From Acidobacteriota bacterium (GTDB taxonomy: Bacteria > Acidobacteriota > Thermoanaerobaculia > Multivoradales > J023), in the NCBI GenBank assembly GCA_003697015.1, contig RFGL01000017.1:1-49949 (forward strand): DNA of 49,949 bases, in the 5' to 3' direction. The position numbers and the translations under genes are program-made. The notes beneath the pieces were generated by a model, which had not been told where the DNA came from, searched no databases, and saw nothing but the letters and a program-made list of their open reading frames with translations. Positions 3,617-5,455 of this stretch are shown here, piece by piece (the first letter of the stretch is position 1; the number at the start of each line of letters is the position of its first letter).

Positions 3617-4629
3617 GCCGCGACCGGGGGCCGGCGCCGCCAGCGGGCGAGGATCGCCTGATCGCCTGGCTGCGGCGGCGCCTGCCCGGCGGCCTGATCG
3701 GCGACGACGCCGCCGTGCTGCCGCGGCAGGCGTGGGCGGTCACCACCGACGCTCAGATCGCCGGCGTCCACCTGCCCGCCGATCTCGACCCGGCGTGGGC
3801 GGCGCGCCGGCTGCTGGCGGTCAACCTCAGCGATCTGGCGGCGATGGGAGCCGTCCCCGCCTACGCCTTTCTCGCCCTCGCCGCGCCGGCCGACTACGAC
3901 CACCGGCGTTTCCTGGACGCCCTGCACCGCGCCGCCGCGCGCCACGGGATCGAGCTCGCCGGCGGCGACCTCGCCCGCCAGCCGCACCTCACCGCCGTCC
4001 TCACGCTTCTCGGCCGGCGGTCGCGGGGAGGTCGCTGGCTGCGCCGGGGCGGCGCCCGGCCGGGGGACGGACTCTGGCTCGGCGGCACGGTCGGCGAGGC
4101 CGCCCTCGGGCTCGAGCTGCTGGGGCGCGGCGCCCGCCTCGCCGGCCGCACGATCCACCTGCCGCCCGGCCTCCGCCTGAGCGATCGGCTGGCGCGGGCG
4201 GCGCGACGCGCGGTGCGGCGCCAGCTGGCGCCGTCGCCGCAACTCGCTCTCGGCCGCTGGTTGGCCGGGGAAACGCGCCGCGGCGGCGCCATCGACCTAT
4301 CCGATGGCCTGGCCCGTGATCTATACCGTCTCTGTCGCGAAAGCGACGCCGGGGCGGTGGTGCGATCGGAACGTCTGCCCCTGGCACGCGACGCCGTCGA
4401 GCTGGCCGCACGGCTCGATCGCGAACCGTACGAGATGGCGCTTTTCGGAGGCGAAGACTACGTCTTGCTCTTCAGCTTGCCGGCGGACGTCGTGCCACCG
4501 GCGGCGTTCGGCTGCCGGCGCATCGGTGAGATTCAGGGCGGCAGGAGGGTGGAGCTGATCGAAGACGGCGCCCGGCGGCGCCTCCCCGATCGCGGCTGGG
4601 ACCATCTCGACGGCGAACAAAACGGATGA
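3613..4629 (+). CDS. thiL: Thiamine-monophosphate kinase
   Basis: A 338-residue protein of the PurM/ThiL fold that phosphorylates thiamine monophosphate to the diphosphate cofactor. Family signatures are LIGDDAAVL (about 28-36), [11 protein letters not shown] (44-54), [10 protein letters not shown] (71-80), GGDLAR (about 116), [11 protein letters not shown] and [10 protein letters not shown] near the C-terminus. The start ATG overlaps the lon stop (ATGA), which explains the missing intergenic space and implies coupling. The frame stays open far upstream inside lon, but that part is a shadow. The stop codon lies inside the 5' arm of the terminator hairpin that follows. Confidence 0.93.
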
Positions 4630-4660
4630 AGCCCCGCCGCCGGTGGCGGGGCTTCATCCG
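4623..4660. terminator. Bidirectional hairpin between convergent genes
   Basis: A perfect 16-bp inverted repeat (4623-4638 with 4645-4660) around a 6-base loop (4639-4644), very GC-rich in the middle. It has no long T-run on either strand. It sits exactly between thiL (+) and the HTH protein gene (-) and contains the thiL stop codon, so a transcription-ending or mRNA-stabilising role for both strands is likely. Confidence 0.75.
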
Positions 4661-4680: not shown

Positions 4681-5367
4681 TCAGCGCCTGACCGACAAAC
4701 GTATCGGCTTCTTGACCGCCTTTTCGAGCTTCTTGAGATAGCGCAGAATCTCTTTCTGGCCGCTCTCGAGGGCTCGGATGCGCCGGCTGACGCTGGCACT
4801 GGTGCCGGCGCCGGCGGCCGCCTTGCGACGCGTGCCTTTGGCTTTGCTCGCCGCGCGCCCGCGCGGACTCTCGGCGCGCAAACGCTGGAAGACCTCGACC
4901 GCTTCCGGCAGATAACGGCGCCCCCGCCCGGATCCCTTGTGCGGAATCTTTTTCAAGTGCAAGCGGACGTAACGCAGGAGCGTCGGATAGGAGATGCCCG
5001 TCACGTTCTTGATCTGGGTCAAGGTCAACAGACCCTCGCCCGCCGTCTTCTTCCTGGCCGTACGCTTGCGACGCGTCGCCGTCTTCTTCTTTCTCGCCGT
5101 CTTGGTCTTGCGGGTCTTGCGCGCACGCTTCGGCGCTGCCGCCGCCGAGGCGGCCTTGCGCGGCCGCCCGCGACGCTTGACGTTCTCTTTCTTCAACTGC
5201 TCGAAAACCGCCAACGCCTCTTCCGGGTAACGCTGAGTGCGCCCCTTGCCTTCCGACGGGATCCGATCCTGATAGAGCTTCTTGTAGCGCTGCAGCGTCG
5301 GCATCGAGATGCCGGTACGCCTCGACACCTCGGTCAAGGTGAGGAGCTTGCTATCCGCTTCAGCCAT
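4681..5367 (-). CDS. Tandem MerR-like HTH protein with AT-hook and basic linker
   Basis: A 228-residue DNA-binding protein. Two MerR-type winged-helix units (residues 8-62 and 113-167) align without gaps at 28 of 55 identical positions, so they arose by internal duplication. Between them are an AT-hook core (RRGRPRK, 65-71) and a Lys/Arg-rich H1-like linker (79-108). A second basic stretch (168-182) and a short predicted coiled coil (194-220) end the protein. The start is set by GGAGG five bases before the ATG at 5367. Upstream in-frame starts at 5388 and 5424 are less likely: the first has its SD touching the ATG, the second lies upstream of the predicted transcription start. Likely an architectural or regulatory nucleoid protein; targets unknown. 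Confidence 0.85.
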   Translation of the reverse strand: MAEADSKLLTLTEVSRRTGISMPTLQRYKKLYQDRIPSEGKGRTQRYPEEALAVFEQLKKENVKRRGRPRKAASAAAAPKRARKTRKTKTARKKKTATRRKRTARKKTAGEGLLTLTQIKNVTGISYPTLLRYVRLHLKKIPHKGSGRGRRYLPEAVEVFQRLRAESPRGRAASKAKGTRRKAAAGAGTSASVSRRIRALESGQKEILRYLKKLEKAVKKPIRLSVRR

Positions 5368-5426
5368 CACAGCCTCCGAATCTGCCATCCTCTTTGGTGG
5401 AACGTCCAAGAAGTGAGCCCGCACAT

Positions 5427-5455
5427 TATTTAGAATACTTCGCTGCGAAAGTCAA
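5427..5455 (-). promoter_or_regulatory. Putative sigma-70-type promoter for the HTH protein gene
   Basis: On the minus strand, TTGACT (5455-5450) and TAAATA (5432-5427) are separated by 17 bases in an unusually AT-rich stretch. A start point near 5420 would leave a leader of about 50 bases before the ATG at 5367. The -35 is strong, the -10 weak. Confidence 0.5.

Follow-up and report, generated by a model that had tools for sequence, protein, structure and literature searches.

A conserved family of tandem winged helix-turn-helix proteins in one order of the Acidobacteriota

The tandem wHTH gene and its signals

The window analysed here is the whole 49,949-nt stretch of DNA from an Acidobacteriota bacterium. 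An open reading frame on its minus strand (4681-5367, stop codon at 4681-4683) encodes a 228-aa protein with two winged helix-turn-helix (wHTH) units. The start was picked from the homologues, which begin near the ATG at 5367 and favor it over an in-frame ATG at 5388, and the coordinates given for the gene in the original prediction were right. Unit 1 (residues 5-65; 5173-5355), of the M/Q type, and unit 2 (residues 110-170; 4858-5040), of the Y/R type, were each placed by Pfam, unit-profile matches and AF2. Right behind unit 1 lies RRGRPRK (5155-5175), whose RGRP core and basic flanks make it a candidate AT-hook, and a Lys/Arg-rich linker of 44 aa (5041-5172; 50% K/R, net charge +22) leads to unit 2. 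A C-terminal helix with a heptad a/d pattern (residues 189-219; 4711-4803) is followed by a terminal PIRLSVRR motif (4684-4707). All these features are encoded on the minus strand. The predicted likeness of the linker to histone H1 extends to composition and nothing beyond it. In this gene, CGT makes up 31% of the Arg codons, whereas its share is 7% both in the ribosomal cluster and in the other ORFs of the window.

The two units share 28 of 55 positions without a gap, while 20,000 same-register shuffles of the pair gave at most 14. Pfam HTH_17 scored 39.6 bits against a cut-off of 27 and MerR_1 36.6 bits against 21.6, each with matches in two stretches of the protein, bearing out the proposed duplication; HTH_29 and HTH_IclR passed their cut-offs narrowly. 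Only HTH models exceeded the Pfam cut-offs, with no effector domain, and no NCBIfam model exceeded its own. Among excisionase profiles, PHROG 66 scored 41.9 bits and TIGR01764 17.7 bits, under its cut-off of 28.8. In the full-length AF2 model, built on a two-sequence alignment, both units have a pLDDT of about 90, the linker stays below 55 (about 40-53), and residues 189-219 form a helix; unit 2 modelled alone from one sequence reached 74. Thus, the wHTH folds and the disorder of the linker are predicted features.

As proposed originally, the gene is probably transcribed from a promoter of its own, although this is backed by the homologues and not by the scan of the window. A promoter prediction tool found nothing in the window stretch of the gene, and our own scan reached 8/12 at spacings of 16-18; TTGACT-N19-AATAAT (5425-5455, minus strand) scores 10/12 if a spacer of 19 is allowed, and it is here taken as a putative sigma70 promoter. 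Among the homologues, with spacings of 16-18 tried and 260 nt measured upstream of unit 1 rather than of a mapped start, a sigma70-like site of at least 10/12 was present in 24 of 31 two-unit genes (shuffle mean 0.3, maximum 2). By the same test, such a site was present in none of 21 genes of genus g7, none of 32 genes from the neighbourhood (NrdR 3, Lon 8, ThiL 19, EBP 1 and AroA 1) and none of 30 further genes of the window, the last two sets overlapping in a few window genes.

Between the convergent stops of thiL and the tandem wHTH gene lies an inverted repeat (4623-4660) with 19-nt arms that are 95% complementary. A terminator scan called one site, on the minus strand only, and shuffles gave a mean of 1.9 (sd 1.8). 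Therefore, the symmetry of the predicted terminator holds for the stem, not for the T-runs.

Distribution and genomic context

Of the 148 class genomes searched with the full protein, 53 matched, including the window's own, and all of them belong to the window's order; 19 of 72 order genomes and all 76 class genomes outside the order had no match (the 72/76 split was inferred from listing order, 75 negatives being unlisted). All but one of the 53 positive genomes encode a protein with at least two units: 31 of these 52 proteins have two, 20 have three and one has four, and the 21 three- and four-unit proteins all belong to genus g7. The 53rd positive genome (G048) holds only a fragment. The finding named in advance as counting against the idea, namely homologues with one HTH only, was thus not borne out. 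The count of 52 leaves out 16 duplicate loci, one-unit frames and frames with a best score below 50 (L004, L005, L047-L054 and a second short frame of L043), among them L049 and L053, which have two divergent units.

At the level of the phylum, the unit profile (E 1e-8) matched 22 of 396 genomes, two of which lie outside the order (G211 and G230) and encode one unit each in a differently built protein; because scoring in this search was limited to 16 candidates per genome, distant tandem proteins may have escaped it. A phylum-wide family was rejected, given that only single-unit proteins of another build were found outside the order. Conservation among Acidobacteriota, which the original prediction had put forward for checking, thus extends to 53 of 72 genomes of the order, with no tandem protein found beyond it.

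Single-unit or divergent relatives include L047, L048, L051, L052, L054, L099, L100 and two Sporomusa proteins with a single unit (L004 and L005). The multi-unit gene is also present in the genomes that encode L047, L048 and L051. Apart from the Sporomusa proteins, a named relative is L003, from an Acidobacteria MAG. Within the stretches covered, thiL was seen at none of 12 loci of single-unit, fragmentary or divergent relatives. The Sporomusa proteins have one MerR-like unit, a coiled-coil-like stretch and an SFWQRLF C-terminus. In a 784-aa frame (L051, G031 C484), one unit is fused to a long protein, the C-terminal part of which presumably resembles a CHAT-type peptidase, judging from its motif. 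In genus g10, L049 (G012, 441 aa) and L053 (G020, 321 aa) are second, divergent two-unit proteins at another locus; the match of the second unit of L053 is weak, and both proteins end, by eye, in a similar heptad-like helix.

The tandem wHTH gene adjoins thiL on the opposite strand, in convergent orientation, at 47 of 52 loci. thiL was not seen at L026 (1.1 kb downstream covered) and L072 (3.8 kb covered), and the gene lies at a contig edge in L038, L056 and L064. A sigma54-activator homologue was found on the same strand at 36 of 52 loci, many flanks being short. Overall, the neighbours tested for and found were nrdR, lon, thiL, the sigma54 activator and aroA. An origin from mobile elements or phages was rejected, because tblastn (E 1e-3) gave no match in 72,556 plasmid and 50,697 phage records and the chromosomal neighbours are conserved.

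A second search, with the unit profile at E 1e-4, covered 18 genomes, namely 17 of the 19 negatives (G081 and G082 were left out) and G048. No unit was found in 16, G048 again gave its fragment, and G019 gave one weak match. thiL was present in 15 of the 18, and the three genomes in which it was not found (G001, G019 and G042) may have assembly gaps. At L111 and L118, other ORFs occupy, by eye, the stretch behind thiL. Because units are missing despite thiL in most rechecked genomes, and because of these other ORFs, the gene seems truly absent from some members of the order.

Units, linkers and tails across the homologues

By Pfam and by its fold matches, the window protein has both the sequence and the fold of MerR-type wHTH proteins. 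The full-length model matched CbpM in its complex (3ucs_B; Z 7.8, rmsd 1.9, 62 aligned residues) at the top, followed by RacA (5i44_B; Z 7.3, rmsd 2.2, 59 aligned residues), CvkR (7.3), GlnR (7.0) and SoxR (6.7). No match reached Z 8 in the VIA structure comparison, and the top matches were nearly tied. With Foldseek, Xis, RacA, BldC and RdfS were matched at E 0.05-0.17, none reaching E 0.001, with a probability of 0.99 for RacA; a sequence-only PDB profile search gave a best E of 0.03. The rank of CbpM raises the question of whether the units bind proteins instead of DNA, as this fold relative would suggest. We consider this very improbable: RacA and CvkR lie within 1 Z unit of CbpM, the positions of the DNA-contact Arg, the aromatic residue and the wing Arg are kept, and the hook and the charge of the protein point to DNA.

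These contact positions were compared with BldC in 125 units (52 first units and 73 later ones, the cut unit of L043 being left out). The base-contact R30 of BldC, mutation of which to Ala abolished saturable DNA binding (PMC5859096), corresponds to R in 45 of 52 first units (K in the other 7) and in 73 of 73 later units. The position of W31 is Y, and that of the wing residue R48 is R, in all 125 units. At the position of H46, which is needed for binding in BldC, 80 of the 125 units have K, and His is absent among the letters listed.

Assembly of the units in the head-to-tail manner of BldC was set aside as a default. As described in PMC5859096, the core of that interface consists of F21, W31 and L43, and a charged or polar residue at L43 would be expected to block the head-to-tail dimer. 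Most of these core residues are lost in the family, although L11, V23 and G44 of the interface are kept. The position of F21 holds A, T or S (V in two units), that of I40 is mostly E or V, R22 is also not kept, and at L43 there is a gap beside polar residues, the place of which depends on the alignment.

The units of the family probably arose by a duplication that predates the radiation of the order. Among 32 two-unit proteins (including L043, the third unit of which is cut by a run of N), the mean identity was 60% between first units, 56% between second units and 43% across units, and the unit tree sets first units apart from later ones, although deep forks have weak support and some outgroups fall inside; both observations argue for an early duplication. 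The third and fourth units of g7 are probably of the later type. The one exception in the tree is unit 2 of L078 (G012), which groups with first units at weak support and suggests gene conversion or a renewed duplication there. In 19 pairs chosen by hand, pN/pS was 0.20 for unit 1, 0.22 for later units, 0.42 for linkers and 0.39 for tails, values that at the codon level mark the proteins as being under purifying selection. Taken together, a bipartite one-chain wHTH protein with an AT-hook core is supported as an old, selected architecture of the order.

Linkers and tails were compared in 51 proteins, L043 being left out because of its run of N. The first linkers of two-unit proteins span 20-90 aa (median 36), with a median of 33% K/R and a net charge of +12; this length spread and K/R content are consistent with a tether. 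A GRP[RPKS] hook behind unit 1, in line with the predicted AT-hook, was found in 29 of 31 two-unit proteins and in 0 of 20 g7 proteins. The predicted coiled-coil tail also has counterparts in the homologues: in 42 of the 44 tails ending in a P-hydrophobic-x-hydrophobic motif, the 28 residues before this motif were enriched in hydrophobic a/d positions (p<0.05 by shuffling, single register), the 7 of 51 tails without the motif being left out. The four-unit protein L035 (G047) has a 201-aa tail with acidic AAPEE-type repeats and a net charge of -33, the sole negative tail among those analysed.

The conserved end motif (44 of 51 tails) and the place of RacA among the best fold matches would fit a role like that of RacA, in anchoring or segregating the chromosome, with the units holding DNA while the tail and terminal motif bind another protein. 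Such a role appears improbable, given that a Z below 8 over one domain speaks for the fold only and that the neighbours found among those tested are not segregation genes.

Candidate function and relation to known DNA-binding proteins

Based on these features, we propose that the tandem protein binds or bridges DNA in an architectural role, multivalently and probably as a dimer, a function inferred from its sequence to which we assign a probability of roughly 0.55. Two wHTH units of the MerR/BldC/RacA type on a single chain would make up an architectural DNA-binding protein, in which the recognition helix of each unit would enter the major groove and the wing would contact the minor groove next to it. 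The linker, flexible and cationic, would let the units reach separate sites while its RGRPRK hook grips the minor groove. Pairing of chains through the C-terminal coiled coil would bring four wHTH units together per dimer, and such paired chains could loop, bridge or stiffen DNA. In g7, a third or fourth unit would raise the valence further, and covalent linkage together with the coiled coil would replace the head-to-tail interface of BldC. We infer DNA binding, dimerisation and bridging from the tandem units in 52 of 53 genomes, the mostly kept contact residues, the hook, the heptad tails, the low pN/pS of the units and the expandable unit number, all of which favor the architectural reading, as does the likeness of the modules to those of bridging nucleoid-associated proteins described in PMC6936261.

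The loss of H46, the missing hook in g7, the absence from 19 of 72 genomes, low codon adaptation and the presence of HU in every genome searched stand against it. HU-type proteins were found in all 59 order genomes searched (the window's own, with five matches, and 58 relatives), leaving no gap in the set of nucleoid-associated proteins to be filled. The tandem wHTH gene had a CAI of 0.498, the third lowest of 31 window ORFs picked by a GC3 rule (one of them, 3894-4292, a likely spurious antisense ORF taken instead of thiL), and the 22 ORFs of the ribosomal cluster ranged from 0.58 to 0.82 (median 0.717). Since CAI failed to separate this cluster from ordinary window ORFs, it carries little weight; nonetheless, high abundance of the protein gains no support. 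A nucleoid-associated role, as originally proposed, is thus unproven and has the layout of the protein as its basis.

Low CAI, HU in every genome searched and absence from some members leave room for a regulator. Here, the two units would read the half-sites of one bipartite operator in a sequence-specific manner, and the linker would merely add affinity. This main rival of the architectural reading is possible, though we regard it as rather unlikely. The units keep distinct letters, with Q in 50 of 52 first units versus R in 70 of 73 later ones at the wing (position R47 of BldC) and, in most, M versus Y ahead of the recognition helix, and these unit-specific residues hint at sequence specificity. 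Low codon adaptation would fit a scarce factor. MerR regulators act at long promoter spacers, and the 19-nt spacer of the putative window promoter contains TTCGC-N-GCGAA (5439-5449), a possible autoregulation site. However, this site is not shared: a palindrome with 5-nt arms near TTGAC occurs in just 4 of 31 two-unit genes (the window, L076, L012 and L056), with different letters each time, and the spacer is 17 in 18 of the 24 good promoters (16-18 tried). Moreover, a spread of 20-90 aa in the first linker is ill-suited to a fixed bipartite site, and the Pfam search gave no effector domain.

The architectural reading can be placed beside several known systems. Classical MerR regulators (SoxR, BmrR and CueR) have the wHTH fold in common with the tandem protein and carry a single HTH plus an effector domain. 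Their layout of one HTH, dimerisation helix and effector domain is not matched by proteins with 2-4 HTH units and a low-confidence linker. RacA of Bacillus subtilis (PDB 5i41/5i44) embeds a MerR-like wHTH within an architectural protein, as proposed here; it has a single wHTH per chain and is not known to carry an AT-hook. In H-NS, Lsr2 and MvaT, the DNA-binding domain has a different fold and is present once per chain, and oligomerisation is N-terminal, whereas it would be C-terminal in the tandem protein. According to PMC6936261, these proteins combine a dimerisation part, a flexible linker and a DNA-binding domain, and a Q/RGR minor-groove motif is present in H-NS and Lsr2. The tandem protein would have comparable modules. 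As described in PMC5859096, classical MerR regulators bind palindromes as symmetric dimers with their own coiled coil, and RacA also binds as a symmetric dimer, unlike the covalent units of the tandem protein. BldC of Streptomyces (PDB 6ama/6amk) has in common with it the wHTH fold, the base-contact Arg, the adjacent aromatic residue and the wing Arg; in the account of PMC5859096, BldC is a 68-aa protein of one unit that lies head-to-tail on DNA, while the tandem protein joins its units covalently in 228 aa. RdfS and other wHTH excisionases (PDB 8dgl, 4j2n) have the small wHTH fold as a single unit, and RdfS assembles head-to-tail through an extra N-terminal helix (PMC11963761). Unlike RdfS-type excisionases, the tandem wHTH gene occupies a conserved chromosomal locus.

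Literature searches returned no paper combining MerR, nucleoid-associated protein, AT-hook and helix-turn-helix. Among the matches listed, judged by titles and the starts of abstracts, no such family appeared for tandem or duplicated MerR, and no title concerned nucleoid proteins of the phylum in a search for those of Acidobacteria. The tandem wHTH proteins are thus a real, conserved family, a prior description of which was not found in the Pfam, NCBIfam and literature searches. More tentatively, they may represent an order-specific class of architectural chromatin proteins, with arrays of 2-4 wHTH units, basic linkers that often carry an AT-hook and coiled-coil pairing, in which a dimer would bridge four to eight DNA sites. 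If this is true, multivalent DNA binding would be reached in these bacteria through covalent concatenation of MerR units, in contrast to self-assembly in BldC or dimerisation in MerR and RacA, and the natural two-, three- and four-unit variants would suit testing how valence relates to bridging and compaction.
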